Origin: Pseudomonadota bacterium
GTDB lineage: Bacteria; Pseudomonadota; Gammaproteobacteria; Xanthomonadales; Xanthomonadaceae
NCBI GenBank assembly: GCA_018241125.1
Contig: JAFEEL010000005.1
Span: 1-48,708, forward strand
Direction of reading: 5' to 3'
DNA length: 48,708 bases
Within the stretch, counting starts at the first letter, position 1, and each line of letters begins with the position of its first letter. Positions 28,032 through 41,510 of this stretch are shown here, in pieces. A program made the position numbers and the translations under genes. The notes under the pieces are model-generated. The model was given only the letters and a program-made list of their open reading frames with translations. It was not told the DNA's origin and searched no databases.

Positions 28032-28241
28032 GTGACCGGTTCCTACGGGGAAATTCTCACGCTCGACGAAGTTGCCGCCTACCTCAAGGCAGGCAAGCGG
28101 ACGGTCTATCGCTTCGCCCAGAACGGGGACATCCCGGCCTTCAAGCTTGGGGGCACTTGGCGCTTCCGCCGCTCCGAGCTGGAGCGCTGGATCGACGCCA
28201 ACAGCAACCAGCACAAGACGACGGGCAAGGGGCGTCGCTGA
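28032..28241 (+). CDS. Small excisionase-type helix-turn-helix DNA-binding protein
   Basis: 69 residues from GTG 28032. The sequence ILTLDEVAAYLKAGKRTVYRFAQNGDIPAFKLGGTWRFRRSELERWI is the helix-turn-helix plus wing of the excisionase/MerR-like family (HTH_17), which binds DNA as a recombination directionality factor or a regulator. Its stop overlaps the start of the helicase gene (TGATG), so it heads the defence operon and is likely its regulator. No integrase is seen in the window, which argues against a phage excisionase role. The basic tail (HKTTGKGRR) may help DNA binding. Confidence 0.85.
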   Translation: MTGSYGEILTLDEVAAYLKAGKRTVYRFAQNGDIPAFKLGGTWRFRRSELERWIDANSNQHKTTGKGRR

Positions 28242-31200
28242 TGGAGATCCTCGACAACATCAATCACCTCTTCGGCGACGACCTCAAGCAAGCGCTCGCA
28301 CCGGGTGCCAAGCTCAAGATCGCCGCCTCCTGCTTCTCGATGTACGCCTACGAGGCGCTGAAGGCTGAGCTGGGGCAGGTCGAAGAGCTGCGATTCATCT
28401 TCACCTCGCCCACGTTCGTGGCCGACGAAGTCACCGATCAGGTAAAGCGTGAGCGGCGTGAATTCCACATTCCCAAGCTGAACCGGGAACGCAGCCTCTA
28501 CGGCAGCGAGTTCGAGATACAGCTGCGCAACAAGCTTACCCAGCGCGCGATTGCCCGCGAGTGCGCCGACTGGCTGCGCCGCAAGGCGAAGTTCCGCAGC
28601 AACCGCAGCAAGGCGCCCATGCAGCAGTTCGCCGGCGTCCAGGCTCCCAAGGGGGCCACGGCATACATGCCGCTGCATGGCTTCACTGCCGTCGATCTGG
28701 GCTACCAACAAGGCAACGCCGTCTCCAACTTCATCAACAAGCTGGACGACCACGCCTCCACGGCAACGTATCTGAACCTGTTCGAGCAAATCTGGAACGA
28801 CGCCGAAAAACTCGAAGACGTCACGGCACAAATCTGCCAGCACATCGCTTCCGTGTATCAGGAAAACTCCCCGGAAAGCGTCTACTTCCTGATGCTCTAC
28901 AACATCTTCAACGAGTTCCTCGACGATCTCGACGAAGACGTGCTACCCAACGATCGCACGGGCTATCAGGACACGTTGATCTGGAACAAGCTCTTCAACT
29001 ATCAGCGCGACGCTGCCACCGGCATCATCAACAAGCTGGAGACCTACAGCGGCTGCATCCTCGCCGACAGTGTGGGCCTGGGCAAAACGTTCACCGCGCT
29101 GGCCGTCATCAAGTATTACGAGCTGCGCAACAAGTCGGTGCTGGTGCTCTGCCCCAAAAAGCTGGCGGACAACTGGCTCAACTACAACCGCAACCTGAAA
29201 ACCAACCTGTTCGCGAAAGATCGATTCAGCTATGACGTGCTCTGCCACACCGACCTTTCCCGCACCAGCGGCGAGTCCTTCGGCGCGCCGCTCAATCGCA
29301 TCAACTGGGGCAACTACGACCTGGTGGTCATCGACGAGTCGCACAACTTCCGCAACAACGATGCGGTGAAGGAGCGCGAGACCCGCTACCAGAGACTGAT
29401 GCGCAAGGTGATCCGCGAAGGCGTCAAGACCAAGGTGCTGATGCTCTCGGCCACGCCCGTCAACAACCGCTTCAACGACCTGCGCAACCAGCTGGCGCTA
29501 GCCTACGAGGGTGACTCTGAAAACCTCAACAAGAAGCTGCGTACCAGCAAGTCTGTGGAAGAAGTGTTCCGCAACGCGCAGCGTGCCTTCAACGCTTGGT
29601 CGCTGTTGCCGCCGGAGCAGCGCACACCGCGCGCCATCCTCGACGCATTGGATTTCGACTTCTTCGAGCTGCTGGACAGCGTCACCATCGCCCGCTCGCG
29701 CAAGCATATCCAGACGTTCTACGACACCCGCGACATCGGCCCCTTCCCGGAGCGCTTGAAGCCACTGTCGTTTCGCTGCCCGCTGACCACGCGGACGGAC
29801 GTGATGAGCTTCAACGAGATTTTCGAGCAACTCGCCAAGCTCAATCTCGCGATCTATACCCCATTGAGCTACATCCTGCCCAGCCGCATCAAGAAATACG
29901 AGGAGATGTACGACACCCAGGTATCGGGCGGCGGCGGCGCGCTACGCCAGATAGATCGCGAGCAAAGCCTGAAGAAGCTGCTCACCGTCAACCTGCTCAA
30001 GCGCCTGGAAAGCTCGGTCGATGCCTTCCGGCTGACCTTGAAGATGCTGCAAGACAACCACCAGCGCACCTTGGGCAAGGTCGAAGCCTTCGATACCAAC
30101 GGCGGCAAAGGCAGTGTAAGCGACCAAACCGCTGCGCTCGACAATCTGGATGCCGAGGAGGACGACTGGCTGGACGAAGAAAGCAGCGATTTCAACGTGG
30201 GTGGCAAGGTCAAGATCGACCTGGCGGACATGGATCTGCCGCGCTGGCAGTTCGATCTGCAGCGCGACCTCGACGTGATCGCCATGCTGTTCGCGGAGAT
30301 GGAGAAGATCACGCCCGCGGATGATGCCAAGCTGCAGCACCTGAAAGCCTTGCTGCACGACAAGATCGCCCACCCGATCAATCCCGGCAACAAGAAGGTG
30401 TTGATCTTCACCGCCTTCGCCGATACCGCCGACTACCTCTACACCGACCTGGCGCCAGAGTTGTGGGCCAAGGGGCGGCTGCACAGCGCCAAGGTCACCG
30501 GCAGCTCCCGGCCTAAATCCAATCTCGCTACTCGCTACGACTTCCAGGAACTGCTAACACTGTTCTCGCCGCGCTCGAAGGAAAAGGCCATCGTGCTGCC
30601 GCAGGAGCCGGCCGAAATTGACCTCTTGATCGGCACCGACTGCATCTCCGAAGGCCAGAACCTGCAGGACTGCGACTACCTCGTCAATTACGACATCCAC
30701 TGGAACCCGGTGCGCATCATCCAGCGCTTCGGGCGCATCGACCGAATCGGCTCGCCAAACAGCCGCATCCAGTTGGCTAGCTTCTGGCCCGACATCTCGC
30801 TGGACGAGTACATCAATCTCAAAGAGCGCGTGGAAAGCCGCATGACCATTGTCGACGTCACCGCCACTGGCGACGACAACGTGCTCTCGGCCCAGGCCAA
30901 CGACGTGGCTTACCGCAAGGAGCAACTGCGGCGGCTGCAGGAGGAAGTGATCGAGCTGGAAGACGTGAAGGCAGGCGTGTCGATCACCGATCTCGGCCTC
31001 AATGACTTCCGCATGGATCTCTTGAACTACGTCAAGGCCCACGGCGAGTTGAAGAATGCCCCCAACGGCTTGCACGCTGTGGTTCCTGCCGACGCGCAGA
31101 TCGGCTTGCCGCCCGGCGTGCTCTTCACCCTGCGCAATCGCAACGCGGGCATCAATCCGACAGCCAACCAGCCTCAGCACAACCGCCTGCACCCGTACTA

Positions 31201-31534
31201 CCTGATCTATATCGGCAGCGACGGCGACGTCGTCCACGACCAGACCGAAGTGAAGCGCCTGCTCGATCTGGCGCGCACCTGCTGCAAAGGGTCGGACGAA
31301 CCTTTCCTCCCGCTGTGCGAGCAGTTCAACCGGGAGACTGCGGACGGCCGCAACATGCAGGCCTACTCCGACCTCTTGGGCAAGGCCATCCGCTCGATGG
31401 TCGAAGTGAAGGAAGAGAAAGACATCGACAGCCTGTTCTCCGGCGGCAAGACCACGGCCCTGACCCAGACCATCGCTGGATTGGACGACTTCGAGCTGAT
31501 CGCGTTCCTTGTAATAGTGAAGGGTGAAAGGTGA
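28241..31534 (+). CDS. SNF2-family helicase with N-terminal PLD-like domain
   Basis: 1097 residues from ATG 28241. Residues 1 to about 170 look like a phospholipase D-type nuclease fold, but where HxK...GSSN is expected the protein reads LHGFTAVDLGYQQGNAVSNF (about 144), so the HKD lysine seems lost. The SNF2/DEAD ATPase follows: Walker A ADSVGLGKTFTAL (Lys near 282), DESH (about 365), LSATPVNNRFNDL (about 403), and the second lobe with KVLIFTAFADTADYL, GTDCISEGQNLQDCDYL and QRFGRIDRIGS (about 832). Such proteins move along DNA in defence systems. The last residues (VKGER) are encoded by a heptamer repeat, so the original C-terminus was replaced. Coupled to the HTH gene. Confidence 0.9.
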   Translation: MEILDNINHLFGDDLKQALAPGAKLKIAASCFSMYAYEALKAELGQVEELRFIFTSPTFVADEVTDQVKRERREFHIPKLNRERSLYGSEFEIQLRNKLTQRAIARECADWLRRKAKFRSNRSKAPMQQFAGVQAPKGATAYMPLHGFTAVDLGYQQGNAVSNFINKLDDHASTATYLNLFEQIWNDAEKLEDVTAQICQHIASVYQENSPESVYFLMLYNIFNEFLDDLDEDVLPNDRTGYQDTLIWNKLFNYQRDAATGIINKLETYSGCILADSVGLGKTFTALAVIKYYELRNKSVLVLCPKKLADNWLNYNRNLKTNLFAKDRFSYDVLCHTDLSRTSGESFGAPLNRINWGNYDLVVIDESHNFRNNDAVKERETRYQRLMRKVIREGVKTKVLMLSATPVNNRFNDLRNQLALAYEGDSENLNKKLRTSKSVEEVFRNAQRAFNAWSLLPPEQRTPRAILDALDFDFFELLDSVTIARSRKHIQTFYDTRDIGPFPERLKPLSFRCPLTTRTDVMSFNEIFEQLAKLNLAIYTPLSYILPSRIKKYEEMYDTQVSGGGGALRQIDREQSLKKLLTVNLLKRLESSVDAFRLTLKMLQDNHQRTLGKVEAFDTNGGKGSVSDQTAALDNLDAEEDDWLDEESSDFNVGGKVKIDLADMDLPRWQFDLQRDLDVIAMLFAEMEKITPADDAKLQHLKALLHDKIAHPINPGNKKVLIFTAFADTADYLYTDLAPELWAKGRLHSAKVTGSSRPKSNLATRYDFQELLTLFSPRSKEKAIVLPQEPAEIDLLIGTDCISEGQNLQDCDYLVNYDIHWNPVRIIQRFGRIDRIGSPNSRIQLASFWPDISLDEYINLKERVESRMTIVDVTATGDDNVLSAQANDVAYRKEQLRRLQEEVIELEDVKAGVSITDLGLNDFRMDLLNYVKAHGELKNAPNGLHAVVPADAQIGLPPGVLFTLRNRNAGINPTANQPQHNRLHPYYLIYIGSDGDVVHDQTEVKRLLDLARTCCKGSDEPFLPLCEQFNRETADGRNMQAYSDLLGKAIRSMVEVKEEKDIDSLFSGGKTTALTQTIAGLDDFELIAFLVIVKGER

Positions 31535-31541
31535 AGAGTGA
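31517..31541. repeat. Heptamer array, left of the four-helix-bundle gene
   Basis: GTGAAGG/GTGAAAG/GTGAAGA/GTGA: seven-base units head to tail. They encode the last residues of the helicase and its stop, and abut the start of the four-helix-bundle gene. The array is inverted relative to the one at 31913-31944. Confidence 0.85.
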
Positions 31542-31542
31542 A

Positions 31543-31908
31543 ATGGCGAGCGACATCAAGGAGCGGACGTTCGCGTTCGCTGCGCGGGTGGTTCGCCTAT
31601 GCCAGATGCTGGACGCTGCGCCGGGGGTGTCGCGCACGATGGCGGACCAGTTGCTGCGTTCGGGTACCTCGGTAGGCGCGAACGTGGAGGAGGCCCATGG
31701 CAGCCAGAGCAAAACCGACTTCACCGCCAAGATGTACATCGCCTGCAAGGAAGCCCGCGAAACGCATTACTGGCTACGCCTGCTGATCGCCACCGATATC
31801 GTCCCCGAGGGAAAGCTGGCTCCCATGCTGGACGAGTCCAACCAGCTTGTCGCCATCCTCACCAGCATCGCCAAGACCGCCAAGAATGGCAGGAACCACG
31901 ATGCCTGA
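31543..31908 (+). CDS. Four-helix bundle protein (S23/IVP-type)
   Basis: 121 residues from ATG 31543; GTG 31531 inside the repeat is a possible earlier start. The layout FAARVVRLCQMLD...SRTMADQLLRSGTSVGANVEEAHGSQSKTDFTAKMYIACKEARETHYWLRLL...DESNQLVAILTSIAKTA is typical of the four-helix-bundle family first seen as the protein encoded in 23S rRNA intervening sequences. These proteins form pentameric barrels related to Avd; their usual function is unknown. The gene is bracketed by inverted heptamer arrays and sits exactly at the helicase/DUF4391 junction, so it looks like an inserted mobile cassette. It overlaps the DUF4391 start by 8 bp. Confidence 0.9.
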   Translation: MASDIKERTFAFAARVVRLCQMLDAAPGVSRTMADQLLRSGTSVGANVEEAHGSQSKTDFTAKMYIACKEARETHYWLRLLIATDIVPEGKLAPMLDESNQLVAILTSIAKTAKNGRNHDA

Positions 31909-32584
31909 CCATTTCACTCTTCACCCCTCACTCTTCACTTTTCCCGCAAGCTGTGCTTTCGGGAAAGTCGTCCCCAAGGCGAAACTCTACGAACACGGCT
32001 CGGCCAGCGCTCGCCTCAAAGGCCTGTTCGCCGAACAGGTCGAACAGATCGTCTGGCAGTACAAGCTGGCGCCCGAAACGACCAATCTTCCTGCCTCACC
32101 CGGCGTACCGGAGATCCTGGTCTTCCGTGTGCAGCTCAGGGCGCCGGAACTTCACCACGACATCCTGCGCTGCATCGACAAGGCCATCCCCTTTCCGATC
32201 CTGTTCGAGCTGCACCATGAGGATCGCCTTCAGGTAGTCGGTTGCTACAAGCGTCCGAGCGAGGGTGAGGCTGGCCGCTGGGTATGCTCGGACTATTTCG
32301 CTACTGATTGGATCGCCGCCGAGAGTCCACGCGCAACTCTCCCGGTCGCGCTGAATCTGGGCGGGTTGTACGAACAGGTGCTGCATGCGCTGATCCCGCT
32401 TACCCATCGCCCAAACGAGTCGCTGCCAGCGCTGGTCGAACGCGAGAGCAAGGTACGTATGCTGCGGAAGGAGATGGACAAGGTGATCTCACAGCTTGCG
32501 ACGGAGCGGCAGTTCAATCGCAAGGTGGAGATCAATGCCACCCTCAAGGCCCTGCGCGCCGAACTGCAAGGACTCACCCCATGA
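31901..32584 (+). CDS. DUF4391 domain protein of the defence operon
   Basis: 227 residues from ATG 31901. The body (CAFGKVVPKAKLYEHGSASARLKGLFAEQVEQIVWQYKLAPETTNLP...GVPEILVFRVQL...LHHDILRCIDKAIPFPILFEL) is the DUF4391 family, found next to SNF2 helicases and type III methyltransferases. The C-terminus (ESKVRMLRKEMDKVISQLATERQFNRKVEINATLKALRAEL) is a coiled coil that may bind a partner. The first residues (FTLHPSLFTFP) are encoded by the heptamer repeat, so the start was rebuilt when the neighbouring gene was inserted. Biochemical function unknown. It overlaps the next gene by 4 bp (ATGA). Confidence 0.85.
   Translation: MPDHFTLHPSLFTFPASCAFGKVVPKAKLYEHGSASARLKGLFAEQVEQIVWQYKLAPETTNLPASPGVPEILVFRVQLRAPELHHDILRCIDKAIPFPILFELHHEDRLQVVGCYKRPSEGEAGRWVCSDYFATDWIAAESPRATLPVALNLGGLYEQVLHALIPLTHRPNESLPALVERESKVRMLRKEMDKVISQLATERQFNRKVEINATLKALRAELQGLTP
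31913..31944. repeat. Heptamer array, right of the four-helix-bundle gene
   Basis: TTCACTC/TTCACCC/CTCACTC/TTCACTT units, the reverse complement of the GTGAAGA unit on the left side. They are translated as the first residues of the DUF4391 protein. Confidence 0.85.
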
Positions 32585-33044
32585 CCGATACGGCCCTGCA
32601 AGCCCTCAAACAGCACTTCAACCAGCTCGCCCAGTGCATTGGCGAGGACAGCATCGAGTTTTGGTTCGCCCGCGACCTTATGGTGCCCTTGGGTTACAGC
32701 CGCTGGGAGAACTTCATGACCGCCATCCAGCGCGCCATCGCGTCTTGCACATCAACGGGTTACGACCCAGACGACCATTTTCGTGACGCCACGAAAATGG
32801 TGAGGTGGGCAAGGGCGGCCAACGCCCGGTGGACGACTTCATGCTCAACCGCTACGCCTGCCATCTGGCCGCCCAGAACGGCGACCCGCGCAAACAACCC
32901 ATCGCCTTCGCCCAGAGCTACTTCGCCCTGCAAACCCGCAAGCAGGAGCTGATCGAGGATCGCATGCGCTTGCAGGCGCGGCTAAAGTCCGATGAGAAGA
33001 AGCTGGAAAAGCAATCCGGAAAGCTGCCGAAAAGTGAAGAGTGA
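32581..33044 (+). pseudogene. Frameshifted, 3'-truncated DinD/BRO-like gene
   Basis: The frame from ATG 32581 (overlapping the DUF4391 stop as ATGA) reads IEFWFARDLMVPLGYSRWENF...CTSTGYDPDDHFRDATKMV, matching the N-terminal BRO/DinD domain. It then leaves frame near 32,803. The expected continuation (VGKGGQRPVDDFMLNRYACHLAAQNGDPRKQPIAFAQSYFALQTRKQEL) is found in the +1 frame down to 33044. Restoring one missing G after the GTG codon near 32,800 would join both halves as KMVEVGKGG. DinD proteins are usually about 270 residues; this copy stops after about 155, with its last residues (KSEE) encoded by a heptamer array. So it carries two lesions. DinD-like proteins are SOS-linked and often sit in restriction operons. 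Confidence 0.85.
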
Positions 33045-33100
33045 AGAGTGAAGAGTGAAAAGCGAGGTTTTCCTATTCACATTCCGCTCTTCGCTCATCA
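33034..33100. repeat. Inverted heptamer arrays downstream of the DinD-like remnant
   Basis: About four GTGAAGA units (33034-33061) are followed within a few bases by a degenerate opposite-orientation run (TTCAC.., TTCGCTC) to about 33,100. It has the same bracket layout as at the four-helix-bundle gene but with almost nothing between the arms. The left arm supplies the stop of the DinD-like remnant. Confidence 0.75.
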
Positions 33101-33112
33101 TCGGAGATAAAT

Positions 33113-33172
33113 GTGGAAAAACTGAAGGTGTACTCGTCCGGCCTCACCAACTACACGACCCACTCGGGTTGA
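33113..33172 (+). pseudogene. Decayed 5' fragment of a type III mod gene
   Basis: Nineteen codons from GTG 33113, with a GGAG ribosome binding site seven to ten bases upstream, encode MEKLKVYSSGLTN and then unrelated residues to a stop at 33170. The first 13 codons match the start of the intact mod gene at 34651 (MEKLKMHSPDLTQ), with most differences at third positions or conservative. This looks like the beginning of an earlier mod gene whose remainder was lost when the DUF2130-mod pair arrived. Confidence 0.65.
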
Positions 33173-33223
33173 CCGCTCGTCGTCAGTGACGCCCATCCCC
33201 GCCAAGGAAAAAGGTCAACAACG

Positions 33224-34633
33224 ATGCAAGAGATCATCTGCCCGCACTGCGGCACCGCATTCAAGATCGATGAAGCCCGCTACGCGGACATCCTGAAGCA
33301 GGTTCGCGACAAGGAGTTCGACAAGCAGCTGCATGAGCGGCTGGCGCTCGCCGATCAAGACAAGCGCAACGCGGTCGAGCTAGCCGAAGCCAAGCTCACG
33401 AGCGAGTTACAGAAGGAGGCTTTGGTCAAGGATGCCGAGATCAAGGAATTGCAGGCCAAGCTCGATTCCGGCGAGGCGGCGTGCAAGCTCGCCGTAACCG
33501 AAGCCCTGAGCCCCGTCGAGAAAGAGCGCAACACGCTCGCCAACGATCTGGCGCAGGCCAAACGCGACCAGCAGTCCGCAGCCAAGCTGGCCGAGGTGAC
33601 GCTTGCAAACGCGGTACAGAAAGCCGCCGCAGCGAAGGACGCCGAGATTCTGGCGTTGCAATCCAAGCTTGATGCCAGCGAAGTCGCACAGCAGCTCGCC
33701 GTCACCAAGGCGGTCAGTGTGGTCGAGAAAGAGCGTGATGGGCTGAAGAACAGTCTCGAACGCGTAGAGCTTGAAAAAAGCCTCGCCGAGAAGTCACTGA
33801 CGGAAAAGTACGAGACCCAGCTCAAGGATCGCGAAGAGACCATCGACCGCCTCAAGGACATGAAGGCCAAACTGTCGACCAAGATGATCGGAGAGAGCCT
33901 TGAGCAGCACTGCGAGACCGAGTTCAACCGCATCCGCGCCACTGCCTTCCCGCACGCCTACTTCGAGAAGGACAACGACGTGCGCAGCGGCAGCAAGGGC
34001 GACTTCATCTTCCGTGACCTGGCCGAAGACAGCACCGAAATCGTCTCGATCATGTTCGAGATGAAGAACGAGGGCGACGAAACCGCCAGCAAGAAGAAGA
34101 ACGAGGACTTCCTGAAGGAGCTCGACAAGGATCGCACGGAGAAGGGCTGCGAATATGCTGTACTGGTTTCCCTGCTTGAACCGGAGAGCGAGCTCTACAA
34201 CACCGGGATCGTCGATGTGTTCCATCGCTACCCGAAGATGTACGTGGTCCGTCCGCAGTTCTTCATCCCCATCATCACGCTGCTGCGCAACGCCGCGATG
34301 AAGTCGCTGGCCTACCGGTCGGAGCTCGCCCTCGTCCGAGCACAGAACGTCGACATCACACGATTCGAGACCCAGCTTGGCGACTTCAAGTCCGCGTTTG
34401 GGCGGAACTGGCGGCTCGCCTCCGAAGGCTTCGAGGAGGCCATCAAACGCATCGATGAGGCAATCAAAGACCTGGAGAAGACCAAGGACGCGCTCCACAA
34501 GTCAGCGAACAATCTCCGGCTCGCGAACGACAAGGCCGAGGATCTGACGATCAAGAAATTGACTCGGGGCAACCCGACAATGGCAGCCAAATTTGCCGAA
34601 CTAAAGCATCACGATTCTTCTGACGAAGAATGA
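33224..34633 (+). CDS. DUF2130 coiled-coil protein, probable PD-(D/E)xK nuclease fold
   Basis: 469 residues. The N-terminus has a zinc-ribbon-like [19 protein letters not shown] long coiled coil (about 30-225) follows and contains an internal duplication: two segments of about 70 residues, each with KDAEI-x-x-LQ-x-KLD-S-x-E-x-A...LAVT-x-A-x-S-x-VEKER. The globular part from about 230 has [10 protein letters not shown] (Asp near 260) and IMFEMKNEG (E-x-K near 279-281), arranged as in PD-(D/E)xK nucleases; assignment to that fold is inference from motif spacing. DUF2130 proteins occur near restriction systems. It overlaps an ATG in the mod gene's leader by 4 bp. Confidence 0.85.
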
Positions 34634-34650
34634 ACCCCAGGAAGCACACG

Positions 34651-36627
34651 ATGGAAAAGTTGAAGATGCACTCGCCCGACCTGACCCAGAGCAACATCGC
34701 GCGGATACGCGGGCTATTTCCGGACTGCGTGACGGAAGGCCCGAGCGAAGATGGCGGCGTGCGGCTGGTGGTGGATTTCGACAAGCTCAAGCAGACCTTG
34801 TCCGAATCGCTGGTAGAAGGGCCACAAGAGCGCTACCAGCTCAACTGGCCGGGCAAGCGCGAAGCGCTGCTGAGGGCAAACGCGCCGATTGCCAAGACTC
34901 TGCGGCCTTGCCGCGAGGAGAGCGTGGACTTCGACACCACGAAGAACCTGTTCATCGAGGGCGACAACCTGGAGGCGCTGAAGCTGCTGCAGGAGACGTA
35001 TCTGGGCAAGGTGAAGATGATCTACATCGACCCTCCGTACAACACGGGCAAGGACTTCATCTACAAGGACAGCTTTGCTTCCGAGCAAACGGCTCACGAA
35101 ATCGAATCAGGTGAGCGCACGGCAGAAGGAGTTCGCCTTGTTGCCAACCCTGAAGGCAACGGGCGCTTTCATTCCAACTGGCTGACCATGATCGCGCCCC
35201 GTCTTCGTTTGGCGAAGAACATGCTCACGTCCGATGGCGCCATCTTTGTTTCTTGCGATGAAGGCGAGCACCCACGCTTGCGCCTGGTCATGGACGAGGT
35301 TTTTGGCCAATCCAACTTCATAGCCGACATGGTCTGGGCCGCCGGGCGGAAGAACGACTCCAGACTGGTTTCGGTTTCACATGAATACATCGTCTGTTAT
35401 GCCCGCGACGCTGAATATCTTCGCGAGAAGCAGATCACTTGGCGGCAGCGCAAGAAGGGGCTTGAGGATATCTACGCCAAGCACGACCGCTTGAAGCGCC
35501 AGCACGGAGATGACTACAAAGCGATGACCGAAGGGATGAAAGAGTGGTTTCGGTCACTCCCCGATAGTCATCCCTCCAAGGCACATAAGCACTACGCACA
35601 CGTCGATGTTCGTGGAATTTACTTCCCGGACAACATTTCATGGCCAGGCGGTGGCGGCCCGAAGTATGAGGTGCTTCATCCTGTCACCCGAAAGCCGGTC
35701 AAGATTCCTTCCCGTGGCTGGATGACCAGTGATCCCAAGCGTATGCAGGAGTGGATCACCGATGACCGCGTGCATTTTGGCGAAGATGAGAATGCCGTCC
35801 CTTGCATCAAGTCCTACCTGAAAGACAAAGAGCAGCAAACACCCTACAGCGTGTTCTATCAGGACGGCCGCGCCGCCTCGAAGCGATTGCGCGCGCTCAT
35901 GGGCGGCGACCTGTTCGACTTTCCAAAAGACGAGCTGGTGCTGCAGGAGCTTGTCGAGATGCTCACTCAAGGTGACGACATCATCGTCGATTTCTTTGCG
36001 GGTTCTTCGACGACAGCTCACTCCGTCATGCTGCAAAACGCGACCGATGGCAGCAATCGCCGTTTCATTATGGTGCAACTCGACGAACCCACAGCTGCGG
36101 ACACACCGGCTTTTCAAGCTGGCTTCAAGACGATTCCCCAGGTCAGCCGTGAGCGTATCCGACGTGCGGGCCAGAATGTGCTCGCTGGAACTTGTCATGA
36201 CAGTTGGGACAAGGACACCGGCTTCCGCGTCCTGAAAATCGACACCTCTAACATGGCCGACGTGTACTACACACCCGATGCCGTGACCCAGGAAGGCCTG
36301 TTCGCTGCCGTGGACAACATTAAGCCCGGCCGCAGCGCCTTCGACCTGCTGTTCCAGGTGATGCTGGACTGGGGCGTGGACTTGGCCCTGCCCATCGAGA
36401 AGAAGACGATCCAGGGCAAGGACGTGTACTTCGTCGACGGCAATGCGCTGGCCGCATGCTTTGATTACGCCGGCAGCATCGACGATGCCTTCGCCAAGGA
36501 GTTGGCCACTTACAAACCGCTGCGCGCAGTGTTTCGCGACGCGGGCTTCAGGGACAGCACGGTGAAGATCAACATCGAGCAGATCTTCAAGCTGCTCTCG
36601 CCTGCCACTGAAGTGAAGTGCCTGTGA
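34651..36627 (+). CDS. mod: Type III DNA (adenine-N6) methyltransferase, Mod subunit
   Basis: 658 residues from ATG 34651. ATG 34630 also exists in frame, but AGGAAG lies at the right distance before 34651 and the decayed copy upstream starts at the equivalent codon. Mod methylates adenine in an asymmetric site with S-adenosylmethionine and determines specificity. It is the beta-class order: motif IV DPPYNTGKDF (about 127) precedes motif I VDFFAGSSTTAHSVM (about 449). The region between, about 220-420, holds the target recognition domain. Family blocks REALLRANAPIAKTLRPC and NLFIEGDNLEALKLLQETYLGKVKMIYI are clear. Pairs with the Res protein downstream. Confidence 0.95.
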   Translation: MEKLKMHSPDLTQSNIARIRGLFPDCVTEGPSEDGGVRLVVDFDKLKQTLSESLVEGPQERYQLNWPGKREALLRANAPIAKTLRPCREESVDFDTTKNLFIEGDNLEALKLLQETYLGKVKMIYIDPPYNTGKDFIYKDSFASEQTAHEIESGERTAEGVRLVANPEGNGRFHSNWLTMIAPRLRLAKNMLTSDGAIFVSCDEGEHPRLRLVMDEVFGQSNFIADMVWAAGRKNDSRLVSVSHEYIVCYARDAEYLREKQITWRQRKKGLEDIYAKHDRLKRQHGDDYKAMTEGMKEWFRSLPDSHPSKAHKHYAHVDVRGIYFPDNISWPGGGGPKYEVLHPVTRKPVKIPSRGWMTSDPKRMQEWITDDRVHFGEDENAVPCIKSYLKDKEQQTPYSVFYQDGRAASKRLRALMGGDLFDFPKDELVLQELVEMLTQGDDIIVDFFAGSSTTAHSVMLQNATDGSNRRFIMVQLDEPTAADTPAFQAGFKTIPQVSRERIRRAGQNVLAGTCHDSWDKDTGFRVLKIDTSNMADVYYTPDAVTQEGLFAAVDNIKPGRSAFDLLFQVMLDWGVDLALPIEKKTIQGKDVYFVDGNALAACFDYAGSIDDAFAKELATYKPLRAVFRDAGFRDSTVKINIEQIFKLLSPATEVKCL

Positions 36628-36636
36628 GGTGGCGTG

Positions 36637-38298
36637 ATGGAGCAGGTTGAACTGACGCGGTTGCTGGACGGCCTGATCGCCACCTGGGAAAACGAGGTGG
36701 TGGAGTTCAAGCAGGCCAGCAACGACTACAGCACCGACGACATCGGCAAGTATTTCTCCGCGCTGGCCAACGAGGCCAACCTGCGCGGAGCGGATGCCGG
36801 CTGGCTGGTGTTCGGCGTAAACAACAAGACGCGCCGCGTGGTGGGCACGGACTACCGCACCAAGGCCGAGCACCTGCAGCAGCTGAAAATGCAGATCACG
36901 CAGAACAGCGACCCGCGGCTGACCTTTCGCGACATCCACGTGCTGCCGCACACCGATGGCAGGGTGTTGTTGTTTCAGATTCCTGCCGCACCGCGCGGCA
37001 TCGCCATTTCGTGGAAGGGCCACTACTACGCGCGTGCCGGGGAAAGCCTGGTCTCGCTGGGCTTGGACAAGCTGGACGAAATCCGCAACCAGACCCTCAC
37101 TCAGGACTGGACGGCGCAGTTCGTTGCCGACGCCACCTTGGCGGACCTGGACGATGCTGCTGTAGGCAAGGCGCGTGAGTCCTTCGCGCAGAAACACGCC
37201 AACAGCTTTGCGCCGGAAGTGGTGGCGGCCTGGCCCCTGGCCACCTTCCTCGATCGGGCACGTCTCACCCGTGAAGGCCGAATCACCCGCACCACCTTGC
37301 TCTTGCTGGGCAAGGCCGAATCCGCCCACCGTCTCTCGCCCCACCCCGCACAACTGACCTGGAGCCTGGTGGGCCAGGAGCGCGCCTACGAACATTTCGG
37401 TCCGCCCTTCCTGCTGAGCAGCACCCGCCTGTACCAGCGCATCCGCAATATCCAGCTGCGCATCCTGCCGCAGGATGAGCTGGTACCTGTGGAAGTGGCC
37501 AAGTACGACCAGAAGATCGTGCTGGAATCCCTGCACAACTGCATCGCGCATCAGGACTACACGCGCAACGGCCGCGTGGTGGTAACGGAGCTGCCCGACC
37601 GACTGGTGTTCGAGAACGAGGGCAGCTTTTACGAGGGAAGCCCCGACGATTACATCACGGGCACCAAGCTGCCCCGGCGTTATCGCAATCCCTTTCTCGC
37701 CCAGGCGATGGCCGAGCTGAACATGATCGACACCATGGGCTACGGCATCCACGACATGTACGTTCGCCAGGCACGGCGCTACTTCCCGATGCCGGACTAC
37801 GACCTTGGCGAAGCCGGGGCCGTGAAGATGACGATCTATGGTGGCGTGGTCGACCCGGCTTACAGCCGCCTGCTGATCCAGCGCACCGATCTGCCACTGG
37901 CCGACGTGCTGGCGCTCGACCGCGTGCAGAAGAAGCTGGCTATTCCCGACACGGTCGCCGCCCATCTGCGCAAGGCAGGGTTGATCGAGGGCCGCAAGCC
38001 GAACTACTTCGTTTCTGCTTCCGTGGCCAAGGCCACGGCCAGCGTGGCGGACTACATCCGCACCCGCGGGCAGGACGACGCCTTCTATCTCAAGTTGATT
38101 ACCGACTACCTGACCGTCAAGGGCGAGGCCAGCCGGGCCGAGATCAACCAGCTGCTGCTGGACAAGCTGAGCGATGCGCTGAGCGACAAGCAGAAGGCCA
38201 ACAAGGTCAGCACGCTGCTCACCAAGCTCCGCCGCCAGGGGACGATTGTGAACGCCGGCTCCGACACTGCCCCCAAGTGGCAATTGGCCAAGAAATAA
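36637..38298 (+). CDS. Schlafen/AlbA_2-type ATP-binding protein
   Basis: 553 residues from ATG 36637 (GTG 36634 is possible). Residues about 15-140 are the AlbA_2/Schlafen domain: ENEVVEFKQASNDYSTDDIGKYFSALANEANL...GWLVFGVNN. A GHKL-type ATPase region follows at about 295-340 (VLESLHNCIAHQDYTRNGRVVVTELPDRLVFENEG), with a winged-helix tail. Such proteins act as nucleic-acid-binding ATPases and appear in several phage defence systems. It lies between mod and res, which are usually adjacent in type III systems, so it probably works with them. It ends about 100 bp before res, at a repeat-rich leader. Confidence 0.88.
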   Translation: MEQVELTRLLDGLIATWENEVVEFKQASNDYSTDDIGKYFSALANEANLRGADAGWLVFGVNNKTRRVVGTDYRTKAEHLQQLKMQITQNSDPRLTFRDIHVLPHTDGRVLLFQIPAAPRGIAISWKGHYYARAGESLVSLGLDKLDEIRNQTLTQDWTAQFVADATLADLDDAAVGKARESFAQKHANSFAPEVVAAWPLATFLDRARLTREGRITRTTLLLLGKAESAHRLSPHPAQLTWSLVGQERAYEHFGPPFLLSSTRLYQRIRNIQLRILPQDELVPVEVAKYDQKIVLESLHNCIAHQDYTRNGRVVVTELPDRLVFENEGSFYEGSPDDYITGTKLPRRYRNPFLAQAMAELNMIDTMGYGIHDMYVRQARRYFPMPDYDLGEAGAVKMTIYGGVVDPAYSRLLIQRTDLPLADVLALDRVQKKLAIPDTVAAHLRKAGLIEGRKPNYFVSASVAKATASVADYIRTRGQDDAFYLKLITDYLTVKGEASRAEINQLLLDKLSDALSDKQKANKVSTLLTKLRRQGTIVNAGSDTAPKWQLAKK

Positions 38299-38390
38299 AG
38301 AGATTTCAAAGAGGCGCCCAGCATGGCGCTTAAAAATCAATTACTTACATCTCTTTGTGGCCACTGGCCGCAAAGAGCTGCAAAGAGAAG
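38297..38390. promoter_or_regulatory. Repeat-rich leader with strong hairpin before res
   Basis: AAAGAGAT (38297-38304) is repeated inverted as ATCTCTTT (38349-38356). GCGCC-CAGCAT-GGCGC is a small hairpin between them. CTCTTTGTGGCC (38351-38362) and GGCCGCAAAGAG (38366-38377) form a 12-bp stem with one G-U pair and a 3-base loop, ending 22 bases before the res ATG. Direct CAAAGAG copies also occur. The layout could attenuate or control translation of the nuclease subunit; no U-tract is seen. Confidence 0.5.
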
Positions 38391-38399
38391 TCGAACTGC

Positions 38400-41300
38400 A
38401 TGAAGCTCAAGTTCAAGATACAGCCCTACCAGACCGCTGCCGTACAGGCGGTGGTGGACTGCTTTGCCGGCCAGCCGCCCGCCAGCGCTCGCGCCGTGAG
38501 CTACCGCATCGACCCGGGCAAGCAGGCCAAGGGCCAGACCATCGGTAGCACCTTGGGTGGCGGCGACGGCTTCCGGAACGCCGACCTCCTGCTGACCGAC
38601 CAGGCGCTGCTGGAGAACATCCAGAAGGCGCAGCGCGGCCAGAACCTGACCATCTCCACGACGCTTACCAAGACCAAGGTGTCGCCGGTAAACCTCGACA
38701 TCGAGATGGAAACAGGCACCGGGAAGACGTACTGCTACATCAAGACGCTGTTCGAGCTGAATCGGCAGTTCGGCTGGAGCAAGTTCATCATCGTGGTGCC
38801 ATCCATCGCCATCCGCGAGGGCGTGGCGAAGTCGCTGGCGATCACTGCCGACCACTTCCTGGAGACCTACGGCAAGAAGGCCCGGTTCTTCATCTACAAC
38901 TCCAAGCAGCTGCACCAGCTGGAGAGCTTTTCGTCGGATGCCGGCATCAACGTGATGGTCATCAACGTGCAGGCCTTCAATGCCACCGGCAAGGACAACC
39001 AGCGCATCTACCAGGAGCTGGACGATTTCCAGTCGCGTAAACCCATCGACGTCATCAGTGCCAACCGGCCCATCCTGATCCTGGACGAGCCGCAGAAGAT
39101 GGAAGGCACGGCGACGCTCAAGTCGCTGGAGGCATTCAAGGCCTTGATGGTGCTGCGCTACTCCGCCACCCACAAGACCCGCCACAACCAAGTGCATCGT
39201 CTGGACGCACTGGATGCCTACAACCAGAAGCTGGTGAAGAAGATCGCTGTGCGCGGCATCACCATGAAGGGGCTGACCGGTACCCATGCCTATCTGTACC
39301 TGCAGTCCATCGAGATTTCGAGCAAGAAGCCGCCCGAAGCCCGCGTGGAGTTCGAGCAGAAGCTCGCCGGCGGCAAGATCAAGCGCGCAGTGCGCAAGCT
39401 GAAGAAGGGCGACAACCTGTTCACGCTCTCCGACGAGCTGGACCAGTACCGCCAAGGCTTTGTGGTCTCCGACATCAACGCCAACACCGACACCCTGAGC
39501 TTCACCAACGGCGTAGAACTCTCCGTGGGCGATGCGACGGGCGATGTGAACGAGGCCATGCTGCGCCGCATCCAGATCCGCGAGGCGATCAAGGCGCACT
39601 TCGACAAGGAACAGGCCTTGTACTCGCAGGGCGTAAAGGTACTGAGCCTGTTCTTCATCGACGAGGTGGCGAAGTACCGCGACTACGCCGCAGCCGACAC
39701 CAAGGGTGAATATGCGCACATCTTCGAGGAGGAATACACCCAGCACCTCAACGAAGTGTTGCAGCTGGAGGAAACGCCTTACACCCGTTACCTGAAGGGC
39801 ATCGCCACGGAGAAGACCCACAGCGGCTACTTCTCCATCGACAAGAAGACCAAGCACCTCACCGACCCCACCGTGGCGAAACGTGGCGAGAATGCTGGTC
39901 AGTCAGACGATGTAGACGCCTACGACCTGATCCTGAAGGACAAGGAACGCCTGCTGTCGCTCACTGAGCCGGTGCGCTTCATCTTCTCGCACTCGGCGCT
40001 GCGTGAAGGCTGGGACAACCCCAACGTATTCGTGATCTGCGCGCTCAAGCACAGCGACAACACCGTCTCGCGTCGTCAGGAAGTGGGACGCGGTCTGCGT
40101 CTCGCCGTGAACCAGCAAGGCGAGCGCATGGACAACCCTATCACCGTCCATGACATCAACCTGCTCACCGTGGTGGCTAGTGAGAGCTACAAGGATTTCG
40201 TCGCCGGTCTGCAGGAGGACATGACCCAGGCGCTGTCCGAACGCCCGCGCAAAGCCGATGAGCATTACTTCACCGGCAAGGTGCTCAAGACCGAACAGGG
40301 CGACGTACCCGTCACGGCGGCCATGGCCAAGCAGATCTACAAGTACCTGCTCAAGAACGATTACACCGATGACAACGACAGCATCACCGGCATCTACCAT
40401 GAGGCGAGGAAGGATGGCGCCTTGGCCGAGTTGCCCACGGATCTGAAGCCCTACGAGGCGCAAGTCATCGCCCTGATCGACAGCGTCTTCAGCACCGCGC
40501 AACTGCCCGACATCGGCGATGGCCGCAAGCCGAAGCGCAATCCGCTCAACGCGAACTTCGACAAGCAGGAGTTCAAGGCGCTGTGGAACCGCATCAACCG
40601 CAAGGCGGCCTACAGCGTCCACTTCGACAGCGATGAGTTGGTGAAGAAAGCCGTGGACACCCTCAACAATCCGGCTGCAAACATCGGCCTGCGGGTGACG
40701 CCGCTGCAATACATGATCGTGAGCGGCGAGCAGTTGGACGCGGTGGAACGCGAACAGCTAGAAAGTGGCAAGAGCTTTCGCATCGGCGAAAGCGTGGTCG
40801 AAAACCACCGCGCCTCCGTCCATTCCGACGTGCGCTACGACCTGATCGGCAAGCTCGCCGAAGGCACCAAGCTCACCCGCCGCACGGTAGCCGACATCCT
40901 CAAGGGGATGAACGTCGCAGTCTTCGCACAGTACAAGACCAACCCTGAGAGTTTCATCGCCGAGGCCATCCGGCTCATCAACGAGCAGAAGGCCACCATG
41001 ATCGTCGAGCACCTGGCCTACGATGCGGTGGAAGAACGCTACGACACGGACATCTTCACGGCCGGGATGACCAAGCAGGACTTCAGCAAGGCCGGCGACA
41101 AGCTCAAGCACCACATCTACGACTACGTGCTGACCGACTCCAAGGTGGAACGCGGCTTCGTCACCGAGCTGGATACCTCAAGCGACGTGGTGGTCTACGC
41201 CAAGCTGCCGCGCGGCTTCCTGATCCCCACGCCGGTAGGCGACTACAACCCCGATTGGGCCATCAGCTTCAAGGAAGGCGCGGTCAAGCACATTTACTTC

Positions 41301-41510
41301 GTGGCTGAAACCAAAGGCTCGATTTCCAGCATGGAACTGCGCGAGATCGAGAAAACCAAGATCCAGTGTGCCCGCAAGTTCTTCGACGAGATGAACCGCC
41401 ACTACGCCCCCGAGAACGTCAAGTACGAGGTAGTGGATAGCTTTGGCAAGCTGATGGAGATCGTGAAGGATAACTCTTCGGCTGCCTTCTGCTTCGTCGG
41501 TATGACATGA
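38400..41510 (+). CDS. res: Type III restriction helicase-nuclease, Res subunit
   Basis: 1036 residues from ATG 38400; the frame is open to 38355 but that part is encoded by the hairpin leader. Res is the DNA-dependent ATPase that moves on DNA and cuts when two head-to-head unmethylated sites are met. Walker A is [10 protein letters not shown] (about 103-112), the DEAD-like box is [10 protein letters not shown] (about 228), and later motifs are [13 protein letters not shown] (about 537) and [11 protein letters not shown] (about 563). The C-terminal nuclease shows YNPDWAI (Asp near 951) and VAETKGS (E-x-K about 969-971), a PD-(D/E)xK site that looks intact. Full length for the family. Confidence 0.95.

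Follow-up and report, generated by a model that had tools for sequence, protein, structure and literature searches.

How much of a composite defence operon is a fixed machine, and how much is passenger, is the question raised by positions 28032 to 41510 of the window, which is the whole 48,708-nucleotide stretch of DNA analysed here (G000:C55:1-48708, from an assembly of 3.07 Mb in 67 contigs; L and G numbers are locus and genome labels). A preliminary description of this DNA suggested that all members of the operon might form one larger multi-layer system. The comparisons set out below favour a different answer. The locus is probably a type III restriction-modification (RM) system in a conserved variant of four genes, with interchangeable effectors in two slots; between two of the core genes, SNF2 and DUF4391, lies an S23 cassette, a single-gene element armed with heptamer repeats. 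All genes lie on the plus strand, in the following order.

28032 to 28241, plus strand: HTH_17 leader, excisionase/MAD1-like and a probable regulator (PF12728, 57 bits on 50 of 69 residues)
28241 to 31534, plus strand: SNF2 helicase with a phospholipase D (PLD)-like N-terminal fold lacking HKD; core gene (PADLOC HKD+Snf2 model, 411 bits)
31513 to 31942, plus strand: S23 cassette, made up of a left arm (31513-31546), the S23 open reading frame (ORF) and a right arm (31909-31942)
31531 to 31908, plus strand: S23, or 23S rRNA-intervening sequence protein, a four-helix bundle (PF05635, 70.1 bits against a cut-off of 33.8; TIGR02436, 88 bits)
31901 to 32584, plus strand: DUF4391 protein; core gene (PF14335, 204 bits)
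about 32581 to 33050, plus strand: broken, presumably DinD-like gene with a disrupted frame (first 74 residues match L008, L022, L083 and L185 by tblastn)
33027 to 33103, plus strand: inverted heptamer hairpin without an ORF, a solo pair of arms (RNA minimum free energy -30.4 kcal/mol, z -5.8)
33224 to 34633, plus strand: DUF2130 protein; cargo in the DUF4391-Mod slot (PF09903, 303 bits)
34630 to 36627, plus strand: type III methyltransferase Mod (N6_N4_Mtase) with a DPPY motif; core gene (PADLOC MTase_III, 728 bits; PF01555, 97 bits)
36634 to 38298, plus strand: SLFN_AlbA_2 and HATPase_c_4 protein; cargo in the Mod-Res slot, where such a protein also sits in several other loci (PF04326, PF13749)
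38355 to 41510, plus strand: Res (ResIII and RE_endonuc); core gene (PADLOC REase_III, 1118 bits; PF04851; PF19778, 114 bits)

The coordinates and gene calls of the preliminary description hold, including the small HTH gene in the lead and the AlbA/Schlafen gene between Mod and Res. Its picture of tightly spaced genes running in one direction is borne out by overlaps of 1 nt (HTH/SNF2), 8 nt (S23/DUF4391) and 4 nt (DUF2130/Mod) read from the sequence, and by a 4-nt SNF2/S23 overlap given a GTG start for S23. Mod and the AlbA gene are separated by 6 nt, and the AlbA gene and Res by at least 56 nt. The description omitted the S23 gene, the 34-nt inverted arms around it and the heptamer hairpin at 33027-33103. 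DinD-like is a tentative name for the broken gene.

Evidence for the core comes from the best 80 loci encoding a Mod relative, taken from genome contigs. Long flanks, at least 4.8 kb before Mod and at least 3.3 kb after it, were available in 49 of them. With the window proteins as tblastn queries, Res was found in 48 of these 49 loci, SNF2 in 44 (39 long matches and 5 short or weak ones) and DUF4391 in 34, a count that rises to 42 with a profile built partly from these loci. Wherever the genes were found, their order was SNF2, DUF4391, Mod, Res, with zero exceptions in the 80 loci, and no strand mismatch occurred among 97 loci with Mod, the window included. The loci stem from many phyla, unevenly sampled, and share this order and strand. 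A second search, of 299 genomes of the phylum, was anchored on SNF2 and DUF4391 to avoid the bias of anchoring on Mod. A strong SNF2 relative (E <1e-200) was present in 17 genomes, the window genome among them, and DUF4391 in 16 of the 17; Mod and Res lay downstream in 12, four loci ended at contig ends, and one lacked them.

Some loci weigh against a strict four-gene unit. Seven of the 49 long loci lack DUF4391 even by profile (L032, L037, L040, L060, L063, L067 and L077), and five have no SNF2 match by tblastn. The SNF2 gene of G169 has no DUF4391, Mod or Res within the 18 kb fetched, and L200 is a DUF4391 locus without Mod and Res. The SNF2-DUF4391-Mod-Res unit is real, with these exceptions. 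The preliminary description had named, as a finding that would undo its view, that mod-res and the helicase-DUF4391 pair might prove independent and rarely adjacent; when co-occurrence was checked, the pair was not independent of mod-res, and the four core genes travelled together. As a separate observation, L190 to L198 make up another branch of SNF2 proteins, with 42-47% identity, and here the DUF4391-Mod-Res partners are mostly retained.

Around this unit, the distances from DUF4391 to Mod and from Mod to Res vary from an overlap to several kilobases. The 54 ORFs of the Mod-Res slot include RhuM (10), HATPase_c_4 (10), AlbA (9), YhcG/DUF1016 (8) and Fic (4), with one match each for Shedu and Abi_C. 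Among 53 ORFs scanned from before Mod, OLD/AAA, UvrD, GmrSD, YhcG, Zeta and DUF2130 are represented, and seven are DUF4391 itself. The window's own accessory genes are infrequent in the 80 Mod-anchored loci, some of which are too short for every gene: by tblastn, AlbA occurs in 7, DUF2130 in 2, DinD in 2 and the HTH relative, upstream of SNF2, in 8. The AlbA and DUF2130 genes of the window are examples of exchangeable cargo in the two slots, and the broken DinD-like gene appears to be slot cargo likewise.

The domains suggest a division of labor in which Mod would methylate a short site and Res would cut unmethylated DNA, the SNF2 protein and DUF4391 would together serve as a DNA-engaging partner, and AlbA, DUF2130 and similar proteins would act as optional effectors. 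With the four-gene unit nearly constant and its cargo slots named, effectors can be separated from the core and new ones predicted by slot position.

The S23 cassette is of a different kind. It spans 430 nt at the SNF2-DUF4391 junction and consists of a gene between inverted arrays of 7-nt repeats. The two 34-nt arms are 88% complementary, built on the left of purine-rich GTGAAGA-like units and on the right of their complement, and the pattern GTGAAGAGTGAA, with up to one mismatch, occurs 7 times in the window against 0.11 expected. For RNA from 31505 to 31960, the predicted fold (z -4.2) pairs the two arms and leaves S23 in the loop between them. The SNF2 stop codon lies inside the left arm. 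DUF4391 begins inside the cassette: sequence and alignment both place its first 14 codons there, and the right arm holds 11 of these. Because the arms supply the SNF2 stop and the first DUF4391 codons, the operon would still read through. The encoded protein has a relative in the Protein Data Bank (PDB), 2rld.

These features recall the intervening sequences (IVSs) of 23S rRNA, with which the cassette shares an S23 gene scoring well over the family cut-off, a length of about 430 nt and inverted complementary arms. It differs in lying in a protein operon, not in 23S rRNA, and in having heptamer arrays at both ends. Passages of a paper on the Coxiella burnetii IVS describe its excision from rRNA by ribonuclease III and tandem heptameric repeats just upstream of the S23p gene, and cite a pentameric S23p of Xanthomonas campestris (PMC4990558).

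S23 genes of other phyla in L033 and L065 have different arm heptamers, and a survey was therefore made. Its sources were the 299-genome sample (52 positive), close relatives, restriction loci, and plasmids and phages, from which 16 of the 25 plasmid records with a match and both phage records were taken in. Arrays were scored at 61 of 63 loci, those with 100 nt or more on each side, and a lag-7 array was one with a score of at least 9. The window's own gene (L081) and one of L108/L141, which are the same place, were dropped; identical ORFs were counted once, and near-identical ones such as L106/L107 were kept. Of the 61 S23 genes, 34 have a lag-7 array 5', 42 have one 3' and 29 have both, against 6, 5 and 0 for 554 control ORFs. 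At other lags from 4 to 14, leaving aside the double, 14, no more than 2 of the 61 loci pass on either side. The 18 plasmid and phage loci gave 14 arrays 5', 14 arrays 3' and 13 on both sides.

Of 82 elements, 42 are two-armed, and in 34 of these the left unit is the reverse complement of the right within one mismatch (exactly so in 21). Between elements, units match within one mismatch in 4.3% of 1722 cross pairs, and the two-armed elements hold 34 different left units. Close matching within elements combined with variety between them is the pattern expected if pairing, rather than sequence, is maintained. The surveyed sequences are related, so that these counts are not independent events.

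Insertion sites give a second view. S23 stands at the SNF2-DUF4391 junction in the window and in L082, L083, L033, L185 and L068 (Bacteroidales). In the S23 tree these genes, with the exception of L068, belong to a clade of 21 leaves (support 0.976; the window's own gene accounts for three of the leaves). The gene of L068 lies outside the window's clade, so that the junction was probably entered by S23 more than once. A further S23 gene of the window genome lies between accB and accC (G000 C16, L139), with its arms 5 and 6 nt from the neighbouring stop and start codons. S23 is also found upstream of accC in G001, G002 and G003, in the last behind a partial second copy, with accB not in view; the accC site is empty of S23 in G059, of the same family. 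In the congener G001 the left arm is of GGGAATG type and the right arm its complement, whereas the others have GTGAATC-type units on both sides. Seven other groups of sites with both neighbours shared yielded one clean pair of different but internally matching arms (L094, L095).

Chromosomal S23 neighbours are mostly metabolic genes. By longest-ORF calls, which are approximate, both neighbours lie on the S23 strand at 30 of 48 loci and at least one does at 44 of 48. A preference of S23 for defence operons was considered and set aside. It was hinted at by 8 of 16 plasmid loci near cas, helicase, methylase or restriction genes (weak matches in L225 and L231; L224 was left out of this neighbour check), and is unsupported on chromosomes, where none of 100 neighbour ORFs from 52 loci match PADLOC at 1e-15 and some of 78 control ORFs do.

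Three other explanations compete with a four-gene core joined by a putatively mobile cassette. In the first, selection would keep the S23 gene as a functional part of the restriction system, perhaps a regulator, with the arms as its regulatory hairpins. The recurrence of S23 at one and the same junction in six loci speaks for such a role, as does the presence within the 21-leaf clade of S23 genes that neighbour cas1/cas2, DISARM-like, helicase and HmaC-like genes. The same clade, however, also holds L053, L084 and five Nostoc plasmid genes without an evident defence neighbour, and like architecture occurs between accB and accC and beside cysD, nuoD and rml-type genes. S23 is present anywhere in only 4 of the 80 Mod-anchored loci (three by tblastn, L068 by profile), the query that detected the plasmid S23 genes came from a defence operon, and the chromosomal neighbours give no PADLOC match at 1e-15. 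An accessory role is unlikely. Somewhat less probable again is that the arrays are ordinary slipped-strand repeats with S23 genes merely nearby. It can point to arrays on contigs of the window genome without a detected S23 gene, and to heptamer repeats described with no S23 link in the main texts of two papers, on Xanthomonas and Nostoc (PMC4692102) and on Beggiatoaceae (PMC4679880). Slippage does not readily account for units that match in inverted orientation within an element and rarely between elements, for the rarity of arrays at S23-less junctions, or for the two accC-site arms that differ together in G001. The reading of the preliminary description, in which all members form one multi-layer defence machine, draws on the single strand, the overlaps and the co-directional genes. 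We regard it as highly improbable, since the accessory genes change from locus to locus as the four core genes stay; few loci have the accessory genes of the window, and the slots hold other effectors.

The preferred reading of the cassette can be extended, tentatively and at slightly less than even odds, to all S23 cassettes. They would constitute a distinct, phylum-spanning class of mobile element, with one four-helix-bundle gene and inverted arrays that drift freely in sequence yet stay matched between the arms, which inserts at operon junctions (essential operons included) and in 23S rRNA, and which is the source of unexplained heptamers in Xanthomonas, cyanobacteria and others. Several observations weigh against the preferred reading of the cassette itself. 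Clear arrays are missing on one or both sides of 32 of the 61 S23 genes, neither phage S23 locus has heptamer arrays, and 8 of the 42 two-armed elements have mismatched units. The remaining orthologous site groups show units that are alike, one-armed or mismatched. S23 is kept at the accC site throughout the genus, which makes movement rare or old. A heptamer-pattern search of the window genome gave 18 matches, a number that takes in those of the window, and the reversed pattern gave 5, a measure of the background. Finally, the 554 control ORFs include spurious ones. Junction and position controls were run to meet this point: 3 of 288 S23-less junction windows of restriction operons pass, as do 5 of 1600 positions in 40 chromosomal stretches, chosen and not random, with none on both sides.

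The cassette may be a protein-operon counterpart of the 23S rRNA IVS. In its transcript the two arms would pair and the S23 gene would form the loop; S23, a relative of which forms a pentamer, would bind this structure. The element could then persist and spread at junctions inside transcribed operons, and leftover arms would stay behind as solo heptamer arrays. RAYT transposases as the source of repetitive extragenic palindromic (REP) sequences offer an analogy for S23 and heptamer repeats. The hairpin at 33027-33103 beside the broken DinD-like gene could be such a remnant, as could arrays without S23. Arrays with GTGAAGC, GGGAAGA and GTGAAGA units were seen on G000 contigs C24, C26, C37, C38 and C51, on which no S23 gene was detected.

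Published heptamer repeats share with the arrays surveyed here the form of 7-nt tandem arrays at gene junctions. In the Xanthomonas and Nostoc case the unit is GGGNATC (PMC4692102), from which the arms of the S23 elements L126 and L141 differ by at most one mismatch; in Beggiatoaceae it is TAACTGA, of whose spread that paper states that "no mechanism is evident" (PMC4679880). The terms "four helix", "S23" and "intervening" are absent from the main text of either paper. The arrays of the present survey differ in being tied to S23 genes as inverted pairs. No report tying S23 genes to bacterial heptamer repeats was found in searches of an open-licence literature library, subscription papers being outside the scope. 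We propose that rRNA IVSs, S23 cassettes and the published heptamer repeats are one phenomenon. The S23 cassette resembles a mobile element that is widespread and little understood, and it may join three published puzzles: the purpose of S23p and the IVS, the origin of bacterial heptamer repeats, and their spread. Should S23 bind and propagate hairpins with heptamer arms, a single small protein and a single short DNA would suffice to test all three.

Returning to the core proteins, the preliminary description had labelled the SNF2 protein as PLD. The fold supports this label; the catalytic motif does not. A model of the N-terminal 230 residues is of moderate quality (predicted local distance difference test, pLDDT, 72, with 53 residues below 50). 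At E<=0.001 it matches nothing in the PDB but two chains of SauUSI, an ATP-dependent restriction endonuclease (7clg; Foldseek E 4e-5, template-modelling (TM) score 0.46-0.49), with several phospholipase D-type proteins lower in the list. SauUSI is itself a composite of PLD and helicase. It differs from the window's family, in which HxK is absent from the PLD site in all 44 aligned SNF2 N-termini; HxK occurs away from that site in 8 of the 44, and the full HxKx4D in L034 only, again outside it. An active PLD-superfamily nuclease was rejected, as the HxKx4D motif is missing at the site in these N-termini. The AlphaFold2 model of DUF4391 is confident (pLDDT 95), with no fold match in the PDB at E<=0.001. 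The sequence sets comprise 53 of the 54 slot ORFs (A1; L072:358-741 left out), 100 of 101 entries after removal of one repeated entry (A3), 38 of the 45 DUF4391 proteins found (A5) and 42 of the 44 SNF2 N-termini (A6).

Among known defence systems, type III RM is the closest, sharing Mod and a Res with helicase and endonuclease domains, each recognized by the Pfam and PADLOC models listed above. The window locus differs in having SNF2 and DUF4391 proteins as near-constant partners and in carrying cargo between mod and res. The preliminary description had seen a resemblance to Hma, and the two do share an SNF2-type helicase, a methylase and an ATPase-like protein. The likeness did not survive a PADLOC run. 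HmaB is described in a passage of PMC8565338 as a 5-methylcytosine (m5C) methyltransferase, and the methylase of the window is instead a type III enzyme of the N6/N4 class. Mod has no HmaB match among all 25 PADLOC families it hits; HmaC is matched neither by the AlbA protein nor by other window proteins as listed (for the SNF2 protein, the best 25 of 44 families); and the SNF2 protein scores 82 bits for HmaA against 411 for HKD+Snf2. Identity with Hma is not supported. DISARM was likewise rejected (DrmD-type helicase NF038317, 150 bits against a cut-off of 610), as was MADS, for which the HTH leader reaches 78.4 bits over its full 69 residues with NF047737 (MADS1/MAD1) and misses the cut-off of 80 by 1.6 bits.

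Several individual S23 loci deserve mention. Two more are found in the window genome: one on C3 (L141) with GGGACTC arms on both sides, and one on C39 (L140) beside ahcY with a 3' array only. In a Pseudanabaena plasmid (L236), S23 lies directly upstream of a gene annotated as cas1, the start of which is matched by reverse transcriptase models. In diversity-generating retroelements, reverse transcriptases have S23-like Avd proteins as partners. In Anabaena and Nostoc plasmids (L223, L224), S23 is flanked by cas2 and cas1, runs the other way and has a lag-7 array on each side. Another Nostoc plasmid gene (L227) has no heptamers and stands within a different type of inverted repeat, long and nearly perfect (score 43). 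In the window itself, translations suggest that a trpG-like ORF flanks the operon at one end and a sensor kinase ORF at the other.

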